Part shown: positions 3,042 to 13,383 of the stretch, in pieces
Position numbering within the stretch: position 1 is the stretch's first letter
Layout: every line of letters starts with the position of its first letter
IMG/VR virus record: IMGVR_UViG_3300027805_000070
Location: 1-26,965 of that record
DNA from: a virus
Reading direction: 5' to 3' (one strand)
Length of the DNA stretch: 26,965 nucleotides
Notes under the pieces: model-generated
Seen by the model: only the letters and a program-made list of their open reading frames with translations
Databases searched by the model: none
What the model was told of the DNA's origin: nothing
Position numbers and translations under genes: made by a program

Positions 3042-3560
3042 ATGAATATCTTCTATTTGCACCACATCGCTCCCATTGCTGCCGAGTACCATTGCGACAA
3101 ACATGTCGGCAAAATGATTATCGAAACTGCGCAGCTTCTAGCCGCAGCTCATCACCTCCACGGCAACGGCGATGCTGTTACCTATAAGCTCACTCATCAA
3201 AATCATCCAAGCGCCATCTGGGCCCGTTCTTCCCCTGCTCATTACAAATGGCTAGCTACGCTCGGCCAATACCTTGGCTACGAATTCTATCGCCGTTATG
3301 GCAAACGCCATAAGTCAGCCGACATCATTGCCAACGAGCTTATGTTGCCTCCCCCAGCTTTACAAGCTATGCCGTACACATGGTGTCCACCTACATTAGC
3401 TATGCCTGACGAATACAAGTCCGACGACGCTGTCGAATCGTATCGCAACTTTTACGCCAGCAAAGCCAATCGTATGCCTATGGTTTACCGCCAAGGCAAA
3501 CAACTTCCGCCAGTATGGCTTACCGATATCTGGCAATCACAACATAAGGAGGCAGCATAA
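3042..3560 (+). CDS. conserved phage protein of the type often annotated as pyrimidine dimer DNA glycosylase
   Basis: A 172-residue protein. I use ATG 3042 rather than the in-frame start at 3027 because GAAAGG (3029-3034) lies 7 bases upstream and the N-terminus MNIFYLHHIAPIAAEYHCDK matches the family start. Conserved features are YHCDKHVGKMIIETAQLL (about 16-33), THQNHPSAIWAR (about 51-62), a tyrosine- and arginine-rich YEFYRRYGKRHKS (about 80-92) and MPDEYKSDDAVESYRNFY (about 126-143). I know this pattern from many phages, often labelled pyrimidine dimer glycosylase. I see no clear match to T4 DenV, so the label is only tentative. A role in DNA repair or base excision is inference. It starts a new transcript and couples to the MazG-like gene. 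Confidence 0.65.
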   Translation: MNIFYLHHIAPIAAEYHCDKHVGKMIIETAQLLAAAHHLHGNGDAVTYKLTHQNHPSAIWARSSPAHYKWLATLGQYLGYEFYRRYGKRHKSADIIANELMLPPPALQAMPYTWCPPTLAMPDEYKSDDAVESYRNFYASKANRMPMVYRQGKQLPPVWLTDIWQSQHKEAA

Positions 3561-3958
3561 TGTTTAAATCAGTTGGCGAGTTCAGAGCCAAAATGCAATT
3601 ACCTATGAGTGACTCACCTCATTTGCTTTCGCCTGAGGAAACATCATACTTTGCGCGGTTCATCATGGAGGAGCTTTCTGAGTATCTTCGCGCTAATGAA
3701 GAGCAAAACTTAGTTGGTGCTGCTGATGCGATTGTTGACTTGGTCTACGTAGCACTTGGCGCTGCGCATGCAATGGGGTTACCGTTTGATGAGTTGTTTA
3801 ATGTAGTACATCAGGCTAATCTCAAAAAAGAACCTGCCAATGAATTTTGTCGCTCAATTCGTGGTAATCAATACGATGTTATCAAGCCGTTAGGTTGGGA
3901 AGCACCAGAGCCAGAAATGCAAAACATTATCAATAAAGCAATTAAGGAAGTAAAATGA
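3560..3958 (+). CDS. MazG-like all-alpha nucleoside triphosphate pyrophosphohydrolase
   Basis: A 132-residue helical protein. EELSE at 37-41 and DAIVD at 56-60 form the paired acidic EExxE / DxxxD metal sites of MazG, HisE and dCTPase-type NTP pyrophosphohydrolases, followed by FDELFNVVHQANLKK (76-90) with the conserved Asn87. The family hydrolyses (d)NTPs to NMP and PPi. In phages, members remove unwanted nucleotides (T4 gp56 destroys dCTP) or act on host alarmone pools. The start overlaps the previous TAA (TAATG), with a strong AAGGAGG (3546-3552). A dCTPase-like role would fit the hydroxymethylase at 12598, but substrate cannot be read from the sequence. Confidence 0.8.
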   Translation: MFKSVGEFRAKMQLPMSDSPHLLSPEETSYFARFIMEELSEYLRANEEQNLVGAADAIVDLVYVALGAAHAMGLPFDELFNVVHQANLKKEPANEFCRSIRGNQYDVIKPLGWEAPEPEMQNIINKAIKEVK

Positions 3959-4320
3959 ATATCAATGATTTAATCAACAACTTTGTTGAAGTCAAAGCTT
4001 TGAAGGAAAGCCTTAATGAACAAATCAAAGAATGTAATGAAAAGCTTGCCGCTATCGAAGCGGATATTATGGAGCAAATGGGCAACGCCGGTATTACACA
4101 GGCAGCGTCCGAAAAAGCATCGTGCACCATGCGTCAGGTCACACATCCGGCGATCACGGATTGGGATGCATTCTATAAGCATGTTGCAAGCACAGGTGAA
4201 TTTGAACTTCTTCACAAGCGTTTATCCTCTGCCGCCTTTAAAGAACGGTGGGAGTCAGGGGAAGCAATACCCGGTACGTCGGCATCGACAAACTGGGAAC
4301 TATCCGTTCGTCGCAAGTAA
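3955..4320 (+). CDS. hypothetical phage protein with N-terminal coiled coil
   Basis: A 121-residue protein. Residues 1-43 form a heptad-like helix (VKALKESLNEQIKECNEKLA). Residues 66-121 form a compact domain with WDAFYKHV (70-77), FELLHKRLSSAAFKERWESG (83-102) and a basic C-terminus (ELSVRRK). Similar small proteins sit beside phage ssDNA-binding or recombination genes, and the next gene here is a putative ssDNA-binding protein, so a replication or recombination accessory role is possible. Its start overlaps the upstream TGA (3955-3958). No catalytic motif is visible. Confidence 0.65.
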   Translation: MNINDLINNFVEVKALKESLNEQIKECNEKLAAIEADIMEQMGNAGITQAASEKASCTMRQVTHPAITDWDAFYKHVASTGEFELLHKRLSSAAFKERWESGEAIPGTSASTNWELSVRRK

Positions 4321-10572: not shown

Positions 10573-10788
10573 ATGCCTGCTAATAACCGCATGCACGTTA
10601 AAAAAGCCGCTGTCATCACTGTAGTCGCAGGTGAAAACCCAAAGCGTAAGGGTACTTTATCTTTTACGCGCTTTAACTTATATCGCACTGGCATGACTGT
10701 TGGTGAATACATTGCAGCAGGTGGTCGTTCTGGTGACATCAACTATGATGTAGCAGCTGGTCACATTACTGTCACACACGCAGGGTAA
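10573..10788 (+). CDS. conserved small phage protein, unknown function
   Basis: A 71-residue protein with AGGAG (10561-10565) seven bases before ATG. Sequence: basic beta-rich N-terminus (KKAAVITVVAGENPKRKGTL), then RFNLYRTGMTVGEYIAAGG (about 33-51) and GDINYDVAAGHITV (about 54-67). I recall the GMTVxEYI...DIxxDxxxGxI pattern from short phage proteins, without known function. It lies between the helicase operon and the putative base-modification genes, three bases upstream of the latter. Confidence 0.7.
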   Translation: MPANNRMHVKKAAVITVVAGENPKRKGTLSFTRFNLYRTGMTVGEYIAAGGRSGDINYDVAAGHITVTHAG

Positions 10789-10791
10789 ACC

Positions 10792-11682
10792 ATGAATATC
10801 CTTATCACCGGCGTTACCGAAACGCATATCAATCATCCAGATAGAGCAGGCTCTACCAAGTTTATCTCTATTCCTGAGCTAATGTCCGATGGCTTTACAA
10901 AACTAGGACATCAGGTTGACCATCGCGCCGTTGAGCTAGGAGAAGATTTAAGCATATACGACAAAGTCTTTGTGTATTTATACCCATTGGATAAAAATGC
11001 AGTTGATCCAGCTGGTGCTGTATATGCTTTGGCACAAAGAAAAGATGCGTATGTTTGCTTAGATGATTGGTCATTCCAAAAAATATTACCCACATGGAAA
11101 GATGACATTGACATGGAAGACATTCAGTCACGTACATGGTTAGCGCCCCTTTTTCCATGGGGCAATATTGCCAAAATGAATTTACCTGTAGCAAAAATTC
11201 AAGCATGGGACCCATCACCACTTTATGTTATGCCACCTGTTCACAAGGTAGCGTGGAAACAACGTAAAGCTGAGTGGTACAACGCTTCACTTTCAAAAGA
11301 TTCGCATGAATGGGCAGCAAAGCAAGAACTTATGTGGCCTGTTCATGCGATTGGTGGAAAGTCTCTTGGCCAACCACGCATACTTGAATCTGATGTTGTA
11401 TGGCAATATGGTTCTTATAAAGGTGTGTTATGCCCAACCTATTCACATGCAGGTTGCGGTTGGTGGCGAGTTAGATACTTGCACGCTGCTGCAGCAGGTT
11501 GTGTGCTAGGTGGCAACCCTTTAGAATTAAATATGATTGGTCCATCTTATAGCTTTACATTAAAAGGCCTTGAAATGATGGATGATGAAAACCTAGAGCA
11601 TTTGGCTGGTTTGCAAGCAATGGATTTAAAACATGCAACACTTGCCAAAACATTGGCAAACTTAGAAAGCTTCCTAAAATGA
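10792..11682 (+). CDS. putative GT-B-fold glycosyltransferase (possible DNA base modification)
   Basis: A 296-residue protein. The N-terminus MNILITGVTETHINHPDRAG, then ISIPELMSDGFTKLGHQVDH, looks like the first Rossmann half of a GT-B enzyme. The C-terminal YKGVLCPTYSHAGCGWWRVR (209-228) with LHAAAAGCVLGGNP (230-243) resembles the nucleotide-sugar binding region of GT4-like transferases, where a small-residue AAG loop follows a charged helix. No DXD motif is obvious, as expected for GT-B. It is directly followed by a nucleotide kinase fusion and a hydroxymethylase, so transfer of a sugar to hydroxymethylated DNA bases is a reasonable inference; a virion or envelope sugar substrate is the alternative. 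The fold call is by eye. Confidence 0.55.
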   Translation: MNILITGVTETHINHPDRAGSTKFISIPELMSDGFTKLGHQVDHRAVELGEDLSIYDKVFVYLYPLDKNAVDPAGAVYALAQRKDAYVCLDDWSFQKILPTWKDDIDMEDIQSRTWLAPLFPWGNIAKMNLPVAKIQAWDPSPLYVMPPVHKVAWKQRKAEWYNASLSKDSHEWAAKQELMWPVHAIGGKSLGQPRILESDVVWQYGSYKGVLCPTYSHAGCGWWRVRYLHAAAAGCVLGGNPLELNMIGPSYSFTLKGLEMMDDENLEHLAGLQAMDLKHATLAKTLANLESFLK

Positions 11683-12620
11683 TCCTAATACTTGAAGGCC
11701 CAGATGGTGCCGGAAAGACAACCCTTGCTGAGACGCTGCGACAGCGTTTTCAGAATAATGGTATGGTCCATATAGTTAAACACGGCCCTTACACAGGCGT
11801 TGAGCCTGAGCATCTTTGCCGTATTTACTTTAGAGCAATGTCACCTGCATTAACGTTTGATGACATTGTTATCATGGATCGGTCATGGATTTCTGAGCCA
11901 ATTTATGGTGAAGTCTATCGCAATGGCGCCAATCGTATTGACACACCTCGAAAGCGTATGCTTGAACGTGTTGCGTTATCAAGAGGCGCAGTGGTTATCC
12001 ATTGCCAACCTGATTTTGAGGTTTGCGCTGAAACATTTGAAAAGCGTACTGAAGAAGAATACCTTGATGACATTAGCCAGCTTGAGCAAGTGTATAACGA
12101 ATACGAAGCGTTGCCGTTGATTACCAACTTACCTACAGTGCACTATGACTACACACGTGATACTGTAGATGAGTTACTACATAAGATAGAAACAGTGTCA
12201 ATAAAGAATGAGGCGTCAGGAGGTGGATGCTTTAAACAAGGTAACATATTGATGCTATGCGATAAGGGCCCCAGAACTAACGTACGTGCCTCTGCAGTGG
12301 TCATTCCATTCATTAACTTCCTTGACAATGATGGCCCTAGTCGTATGCTGGCAGACGCACTTGAGTATGAAGGCGTTACTGAAAAAGAGCTTTACTGGAT
12401 TAACACACAAACTTATCAAGGCACACCAACCGAGCCTGAGTTTATTGAGAAATTGAAACCAAGCAAGATTTTTGCATTGGGCAATAATGCCTACACATGG
12501 GCATTAAATAATAATGTGAAAGCAATAAAATTACCACCACCGCTACATCATATGCAGCATTACCCTAACCAACCTTATTTGATCATGGAATCTGACAATG
12601 GAAACTTCAATAATCTATAA
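11679..12620 (+). CDS. P-loop nucleotide kinase fused to a uracil-DNA-glycosylase-fold domain
   Basis: A 313-residue two-domain protein. Residues 1-172 are thymidylate-kinase-like: P-loop GPDGAGKT (7-14), DRSWISEPIYGEVYR (67-81) where dNMP kinases have their DR(Y/S) motif, and a lid-like KRTEEEY (122-128). Residues 188-302 match the uracil-DNA glycosylase superfamily pattern: NILMLCDKGP (189-198), DGPSRMLADALEYEGV (218-233), LYWINTQ (238-244), FIEKLKPSKIFALGNNA (255-271) and HHMQHYP (290-296). The usual GExPG and HPS catalytic motifs are replaced, so glycosylase activity is doubtful. Between a GT-like gene (ATGA overlap) and a dCMP-hydroxymethylase-like gene, it may phosphorylate a modified nucleotide or base and then process it. 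Confidence 0.75.
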   Translation: MILILEGPDGAGKTTLAETLRQRFQNNGMVHIVKHGPYTGVEPEHLCRIYFRAMSPALTFDDIVIMDRSWISEPIYGEVYRNGANRIDTPRKRMLERVALSRGAVVIHCQPDFEVCAETFEKRTEEEYLDDISQLEQVYNEYEALPLITNLPTVHYDYTRDTVDELLHKIETVSIKNEASGGGCFKQGNILMLCDKGPRTNVRASAVVIPFINFLDNDGPSRMLADALEYEGVTEKELYWINTQTYQGTPTEPEFIEKLKPSKIFALGNNAYTWALNNNVKAIKLPPPLHHMQHYPNQPYLIMESDNGNFNNL

Positions 12621-13383
12621 TGAGCCCGATCTCATTCAACTATACCAATGTCTAGAGCAGTACGGGCATTGGACTGAGCCAAGAGGCGAAAAGACTCTTG
12701 AGATCGAAAACTTTACTTACACAGTAGGGCCACGTGTAAGATTTAATTCTTTCAAAGGCCGCAACTTCAACCTTAAGTATCTTAAGCGCGAAATGGCTTG
12801 GTATATTAATGCAGACCCGCATGACTTATCTATTGCTGAGCATGCAGCGCAGTGGGGCAAAGTTGTTGCAAATGGAAAGCTCAATAGCAACTATGGTTCA
12901 TATTGGTTTGGCTGTTATGGCGTTAAGTATATTACCAGTACGCTTTCAAAAGATCCAATGAGTCGCCGTGCTGTTATACCTATGTATGGCACTGACGATG
13001 ATCACATGGACAAAGACGCTAAAGATGTGCCATGTACTATTGCAATTGAGTTCAGAATACGTAATGGCAGGCTAAATACACGTGCCATCATGCGTTCTCA
13101 GGACATCCTTTGGGGTATGGGTAATGATCTACCCACATTTAGTTTCCTCCAAGAGATCGTAGCAACACTTTTAAACTTGCAAGTAGGCACACTCACTGTT
13201 TCAGTTGGTTCGTTCCACGTTTATGAATCTCGCTTTGAGATGTTTCAAAACATTCTAAAAGAAAATACGCATGAGGCTATTGCTGATAAACCACCTATGA
13301 TTGGTCGTTTTGAAGCACATAACCTTATTGAAAAATCCATCAACCCTTCCTTCGAGTTCTCAAAATGGCTAATGAATATATAA
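12598..13383 (+). CDS. thymidylate-synthase-family nucleotide hydroxymethylase, T4 dCMP-hydroxymethylase-like
   Basis: A 261-residue enzyme that overlaps the kinase gene by 23 bases. Conserved elements: E65 (KREMAWY), NSNYG (96-100), SRR (122-124), nucleophile C146 (DVPCTIAIEF), R166/S167/D169 (MRSQDILWG), N176-D177 and VGSFHVY (203-209). As I remember it, T4 gp42 has the same NSNYG, SRR, MRSxDvxxGxxND and VGSLHVY blocks. D177 falls where thymidylate synthase has the Asn that selects dUMP; Asp there selects dCMP. The predicted reaction is dCMP plus methylene-tetrahydrofolate to 5-hydroxymethyl-dCMP. A dUMP substrate is not excluded. Expected role: supply of modified nucleotides for phage DNA. 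Confidence 0.85.
   Translation: METSIIYNEPDLIQLYQCLEQYGHWTEPRGEKTLEIENFTYTVGPRVRFNSFKGRNFNLKYLKREMAWYINADPHDLSIAEHAAQWGKVVANGKLNSNYGSYWFGCYGVKYITSTLSKDPMSRRAVIPMYGTDDDHMDKDAKDVPCTIAIEFRIRNGRLNTRAIMRSQDILWGMGNDLPTFSFLQEIVATLLNLQVGTLTVSVGSFHVYESRFEMFQNILKENTHEAIADKPPMIGRFEAHNLIEKSINPSFEFSKWLMNI

Follow-up and report, generated by a model that had tools for sequence, protein, structure and literature searches.

We describe a cassette of three overlapping genes, located at positions 10792-13383 on the plus strand of a tailed-phage DNA fragment of 26,965 bases (IMG/VR record IMGVR_UViG_3300027805_000070; the whole of this fragment is referred to as the window), and we consider it likely that the cassette is a compact operon for T4-like cytosine glycosylation, in which 5-hydroxymethyl-dCMP (hm-dCMP) would be made, phosphorylated, incorporated and then glycosylated in DNA. 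The predicted products are a GT-B glycosyltransferase (GT; gene 1, 10792-11682, 296 amino acids), a fusion of a nucleotide kinase with a UDG-fold domain (gene 2, 11679-12620, 313 amino acids) and a pyrimidine hydroxymethylase of the thymidylate synthase (TS) superfamily (gene 3, 12598-13383, 261 amino acids). The proposal is based on the joint conservation of the three genes, a cytosine-type signature in the orthologues of gene 3, the similarity of the modelled GT to T4 beta-glucosyltransferase (BGT), the location of GT relatives beside hydroxymethylase or TET/JBP genes, a PRA-PH hydrolase that accompanies the cassette throughout its clade, and the restriction resistance of DNA from phage AXL3, which carries a similar cassette. 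For each protein we computed the family and fold, active-site signatures, conservation and genomic association.

If the proposal is correct, a large group of uncultured environmental phages has glycosylated cytosine in its DNA, produced from a minimal three-gene operon that includes a DNA glycosyltransferase family named in none of the protein libraries searched. Sugar-bearing cytosine would hide the phage DNA from bacterial defences. Relative to T4-like cytosine glycosylation as it is known, the novelty would lie in an unnamed GT family and in the joining of a kinase to a UDG-fold domain, although the fusion itself already exists in Bacillus phage G.

Organization and conservation of the cassette

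A first-pass annotation of the sequence had proposed three overlapping genes in this segment, and the open reading frames (ORFs) are indeed present there, all on the plus strand. Genes 1 and 2 overlap by 4 nucleotides (ATGA, 11679-11682) and genes 2 and 3 by 23 nucleotides (12598-12620), which suggests coupled translation of the trio. Since comparison of the cassette DNA with phage records by blastn gave no match, relatives were found through protein searches. In scans of IMG/VR, the GT, kinase/UDG and hydroxymethylase genes are contiguous and in the same order in every one of the 73 distinct related contigs from environmental phages that had room for the trio to be tested. The junctions between the genes range from -20 to +20 nucleotides, and the conservation reaches down to approximately 55-60% protein identity. 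The ratio of nonsynonymous to synonymous substitution rates (dN/dS) is 0.025-0.21 for the trio, indicating purifying selection. The constant order together with these ratios argues that the three ORFs did not arise by chance.

A cytosine-type hydroxymethylase

The product of gene 3 matches PF00303 in Pfam (7e-21, 75 bits versus a cut-off of 24.3), and its best relatives in PDB by sequence are the CMP 5-hydroxymethylase MilA and the T4 dCMP hydroxymethylase gp42, both ranking above all thymidylate synthases. Its active site contains C146, T147 and D177 (the CT..D signature; positions 147 and 177 follow the numbering of E. coli thymidylate synthase), residues that are identical in T4 gp42, and the signature is found in all 222 of the 222 gene 3 orthologues examined. 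MetaGPA reported that these two positions distinguish contigs of modified-cytosine DNA from other contigs, with Asp177 in the former and Asn177 typical of dUMP enzymes (PMC8670742). In the same alignment, the control dUMP-type enzymes of phage M6 and of an SPO1-type phage (SPO1L1) have Asn at both positions (CN..N). We conclude that gene 3 most likely encodes a dCMP-type, that is, cytosine, pyrimidine hydroxymethylase, as predicted from these residues and in agreement with the T4-type enzyme named in the first-pass annotation. On this sequence evidence, the signature identifies the base as cytosine and leaves the choice of product among hydroxymethyl, hydroxy and methyl derivatives.

A glycosyltransferase with a BGT-like fold

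The product of gene 1 has no match in Pfam at E<=1 and none in NCBIfam; its sole significant library match is phrog_14998, a family whose function is not annotated. The AlphaFold2 model (pLDDT 94.7, pTM 0.91, from an alignment of 52 sequences) has a GT-B fold, and its best PDB matches in Foldseek are entries for T4 BGT (E 9.5e-6). With VIA-align, the model is closest to T4 BGT (Z 18.9 over 280 residues, root-mean-square deviation 3.7), followed by SenB (Z 17.6) and T4 alpha-glucosyltransferase (AGT; Z 16.4). According to the model, gene 1 thus encodes a GT-B enzyme that is structurally closest to T4 BGT and near AGT, and we predict that it glycosylates 5-hydroxymethylcytosine (5hmC) in DNA. 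The first-pass annotation had taken a fold outside GT-B, together with a trio that is not kept together, as signs against its proposal; the opposite was found on both counts.

A common fold alone does not prove function, and the gene neighbourhood adds support. We counted neighbours in 80 viral loci (L186-L265) with distant relatives of the gene 1 GT. A CT..D hydroxymethylase gene lies upstream of the GT on the same strand in 66 of them, with a median gap of 881 nucleotides, and a hydroxymethylase is found beside the GT in 16 of the 22 groups obtained by clustering at 80% identity. A TET/JBP-type gene lies upstream of the GT in 4 of the 80 loci. Because hydroxymethylases and TET/JBP enzymes both give 5hmC by chemically different routes, one GT family is joined to two routes to the same base. 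If the proposal is correct, the family offers candidate enzymes for 5hmC labelling.

A gene for UDP-galactopyranose mutase (UGM) is next to the GT in 54 of the 80 loci (e.g., L004:8001-10033 and L007:4895-7077). The loci of this kind in Aeromonas phage Aes508, Erwinia phage FBB1 and phage C48C1 carry the same GT family at approximately 26-35% identity, mostly adjoining a hydroxymethylase or TET/JBP gene; they differ from the window clade in encoding UGM, which points to UDP-galactofuranose as the donor there and suggests galactofuranose on the cytosine of DNA from the UGM-carrying phages. Extension of this donor to the window clade was considered and ruled out as a carry-over, no UGM being present in the window or in 18 relatives. 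Two further arrangements around these GT genes were noted. In phage C48C1 (L004:6586-8004), a TET/JBP dioxygenase gene immediately precedes the GT and UGM genes, and a gene resembling C-5 cytosine DNA methylases is near or next to the GT at L170:1303-2391 (confirmed by Pfam) and at L264:2578-3631 (two ORFs, recognised by eye).

A kinase fused to a remodelled UDG-fold domain

The N-terminal domain of the gene 2 product (residues 1-173, 11679-12197, plus strand) is of the TMK/YorR type of deoxynucleoside monophosphate (dNMP) kinases, with the P-loop EGPDGAGKT and a DRSW motif; the corresponding patterns EGxDGxGK and DRxW are conserved in the clade. It matches PF02223, thymidylate kinase (1.7e-9, 38 bits versus a cut-off of 27), and its structure matches YorR in Foldseek (3kb2, 1e-7) and the TMK of A. 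aeolicus in VIA (Z 15.4). From this assignment, the domain is predicted to be an hm-dCMP kinase that acts at the nucleotide level.

The C-terminal domain (residues 174-313, 12198-12617, plus strand) has a UDG fold with a remodelled active site. When a profile of 32 diverse members of this domain is compared with PDB, the 27 best matches all belong to the UDG superfamily, each of them being weak (E 0.013-0.75). Of the 32 members, 14 match PF03167, and two is the most that any other family reaches. Alignment of the domain with three bacterial UDGs by hhalign gives a probability of 96.5% (E 7.5e-10), compared to 0.1% for two unrelated control alignments. The domain from the window itself scores below the Pfam gathering threshold for PF03167 (13.5 versus 24.3 bits). 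When the whole fusion protein is compared with PDB, no UDG-fold match is among the matches listed, which are filled by matches to the kinase domain, and this is no evidence against the fold. The product gp315 of phage G (L266:8928-9920) aligns with the gene 2 model over almost its full length in Foldseek, and the combined architecture can be regarded as real because gp315 has both domains, with PF03167 at 1.5e-12 (48.2 bits). The kinase fused to a glycosylase-fold domain that the first-pass annotation had named is thereby recovered by PF02223 and by profile comparison. Our literature search found no paper describing a kinase-UDG fusion.

In all 127 of the 127 clade members, the motifs CDxGP...N and PPPLxHxQ replace GExPG...HPxxxxR, so that the HP of motif 2 has become PP by a change of His to Pro. 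The altered pocket is strictly kept, and ten positions are invariant in the clade (C194, D195, N201, N213, D216, R222, N269, N270, H291 and Q293), and dN/dS of the domain is 0.025-0.09. The rewritten motifs, the invariant residues and the low dN/dS argue for a functional domain that is probably not a uracil glycosylase of the classical kind. Some kinases in comparable cassettes (L174-L176, Xp15 and MD-2021a) lack it, which indicates an accessory of the pathway. The most probable role of the UDG-fold domain is that of a pyrimidine-binding module, repurposed for selecting the modified nucleotide or for channelling it. That it is still an active glycosylase, working on DNA (on U or hydroxymethyluracil from deaminated C or 5hmC) or on nucleotides (removing unwanted dUMP or dCMP), is possible but doubtful in our estimation: Pfam clearly recognises a UDG in the phage G version, and motifs 1 and 2 of AXL-type versions still have an acidic residue and HPQ, respectively, but the replacement of His in motif 2 and the rewritten motif 1 of the clade, as well as the kinases that lack the domain, speak against it. 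We give a rather small chance to a more elaborate version, in which the gene 2 product would be bifunctional, its nucleotide N-glycosylase destroying unmodified pyrimidine nucleotides or the wrong product while the kinase passes hm-dCMP, thus proofreading the precursor pool, and in which the GT family as a whole would use UDP-sugars of host or phage origin, galactofuranose among them, to decorate phage DNA.

The fusion also bears on a route like that of the hypermodified-thymidine phages, where the kinase would act on a hydroxymethylated base in DNA, adding a phosphate that the UDG-fold domain would then exchange for another group, as has been proposed for glycosylase-fold enzymes of the SP10/M6 type. 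In favour of such a route, a kinase is fused to a glycosylase fold and adjoins a hydroxymethylase. However, the kinase is of the TMK/YorR type, the hydroxymethylase has the Asp177 of cytosine enzymes instead of the Asn177 of dUMP enzymes, and neither of two marker families of the hypermodified-thymidine phages was found in the window, AXL3, an AXL-type record, phage G or three relatives from the clade. These families, HMUDK_hel (PF18723, helical domain of the hydroxymethyluracil DNA kinase) and ADDT (PF18724, amino acid:DNA transferase), were both detected in the positive control, phage M6, at 1.4e-57 and 2.3e-48, respectively. We therefore find this route highly improbable, and the first-pass view of the cassette as intermediate between T4 and the hypermodified-thymidine phages is not supported.

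Related cassettes in other phages

The likeness to T4 (gp42, gp1, gp56, and alpha- and beta-glucosyltransferases) seen in the first-pass annotation stands, comprising a CT..D dCMP hydroxymethylase, a dNMP kinase, a candidate dCTP remover and a BGT-like GT-B transferase. The window differs from T4 in the overlap of the three genes within one operon and in its TMK-type kinase, which carries a UDG-fold domain. Its GT forms a sequence family apart, without a Pfam match, and its candidate dCTP remover is of the PRA-PH type.

The gene combination, which had appeared unfamiliar in the first pass, is not unique to the window clade. In phage G, the gp306/gp313-gp315-gp319 region already contains a kinase+UDG fusion, a TS-like CT..D enzyme and two relatives of DNA alpha-glucosyltransferases. 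Unlike in the window, these GTs belong to the T4 AGT family (PF11440), the genes are spread over approximately 12 kb, the UDG is canonical with an HPAY motif, and a dCMP deaminase is present.

The isolated Stenotrophomonas phage AXL3 and Pseudoxanthomonas PW916 share with the window the kinase+UDG fusion followed by a CT..D enzyme, a nearby PRA-PH gene and an upstream helicase gene, but have an S-adenosylmethionine (SAM)-dependent methyltransferase in place of the GT, a dCMP deaminase, and HPQ in the UDG domain. The AXL3-type group includes AXL3, PW916, ctUtU524 and approximately 35 viral contigs, and the order in most members is methyltransferase, PRA-PH hydrolase, kinase/UDG, CT..D enzyme and dCMP deaminase. 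Contig L170, with GT, kinase/UDG, CT..D enzyme and deaminase, bridges this group and the window clade. Only 2 of 37 restriction enzymes cut AXL3 DNA, both at sites consisting of A/T only, while the sites of the other 35 all contain G/C (PMC7504290). This resistance fits a modified cytosine produced by the shared kinase-hydroxymethylase core; the GT is outside its reach. As a separate observation, the gene preceding the PRA-PH gene in L144-L182 (e.g., L001:6602-7426) encodes a SAM methyltransferase in the GT slot, so that a methylated derivative of 5hmC may be the final base in these cassettes.

Cassettes of the Xanthomonas phage Xp15 type follow the gene order of the window in their CT..D hydroxymethylase and small P-loop kinase, but their tailoring enzyme is a carbamoyltransferase and the kinase has no UDG domain. 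The GT slot is occupied by a NodU carbamoyltransferase in Xp15 and MD-2021a. MetaGPA reported that carbamoyltransferase-TS pairs mark modified-cytosine DNA and described a 5hmC carbamoyltransferase (PMC8670742). The Xp15 gene ZJ was considered as a lone UDG-like protein, a reading that was rejected since its alignment is that of a P-loop kinase. Across these phages, a single core of hydroxymethylase and kinase is combined with exchangeable tailoring enzymes (GT, methyltransferase or carbamoyltransferase), and such exchange predicts new DNA bases.

Relatives of the cassette genes are named 'thymidylate kinase' and 'thymidylate synthase' in databases, as expected if the cassette served ordinary thymidylate salvage and the GT an unrelated surface glycan. 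The presence of CT..D in every orthologue, hydroxymethylases as the nearest PDB matches, a GT fold nearest to T4 BGT and the restriction resistance of AXL3 DNA make this explanation extremely unlikely.

Proposed pathway and alternatives

In the proposed T4-like pathway, the gene 3 enzyme would convert dCMP to hm-dCMP using methylene-tetrahydrofolate, and the kinase domain of the gene 2 product would convert hm-dCMP to the diphosphate. The triphosphate would be completed by host NDP kinase and incorporated into DNA by the phage PolA (5568-7460, plus strand), while competing dCTP would be removed by a MazG-like enzyme. Finally, the gene 1 enzyme would move the sugar from a host UDP-sugar onto the hydroxymethyl group in DNA. 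All of these reactions are inferred, and so are the identity of the base (5hmC over 5-hydroxycytosine or 5-methylcytosine), that of the sugar, and what the UDG-fold domain does.

The candidate dCTP-depleting enzyme is a PRA-PH/MazG-like nucleotide pyrophosphohydrolase encoded at 3560-3958 on the plus strand (PF01503, 2.8e-16; phrog_671, 1.2e-21). In T4 cytosine glucosylation dCTP is removed by gp56, and the dCTP specificity of the window enzyme is suggested by analogy with it. The PRA-PH hydrolase is present in all 19 of the 19 clade records and adjoins the kinase in AXL3-type cassettes. PRA-PH is another of the domains associated with modification by MetaGPA (PMC8670742). A dCMP deaminase was sought as a further partner and found in 0 of the 19 clade records, unlike in AXL3-type cassettes.

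Several points weigh against this pathway. The GT falls outside the BGT, AGT and all other families of Pfam. AXL3 has a methyltransferase instead of the gene 1 GT, and its resistance supports the kinase-hydroxymethylase part only. No sugar-nucleotide genes (mutase, epimerase or NTP-transferase) were found in the 18-19 clade records, whose completeness is unstated; for the NTP-transferase and the epimerase, the families sought were PF00483 and PF01370, absent from 19 records of which some may be incomplete. Given these absences, the sugar donor of the clade is probably a host UDP-sugar.

In addition, TS-fold enzymes with Asp can yield 5-methyl-dCMP or 5-hydroxy-dCMP, the latter being the product of a homologous TS-superfamily enzyme in Mosigvirus (PMC13390438). 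The first product in the window could accordingly be 5-hydroxy-dCMP, with the sugar placed directly on C5 as in Mosigvirus NP/RB69 (5-ara-dC), and one relative of the GT, in Morganella phage Rgz1, lies beside genes for a sugar-phosphate isomerase and an NTP-transferase. The lack of a phage sugar-nucleotide module in the clade records and the pairing of the GT family with TET/JBP enzymes, which give 5hmC, make this alternative unlikely in comparison with hm-dCMP.

Other features of the window

On the plus strand, the cassette is preceded by genes for PolA, DUF932, PD-(D/E)XK, VRR_NUC and SNF2-helicase proteins, and it is followed by virion genes on the minus strand. An ORF of 71 amino acids between the helicase and GT genes (10573-10788, plus strand) belongs to no recognised family, with no match in Pfam or PHROG, and its position is conserved in most clade loci. 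Directly after the pyrophosphohydrolase gene, a protein is encoded at 3955-4320 that weakly resembles Mu Gam-like end-protection proteins (phrog_253, 1.5e-4).

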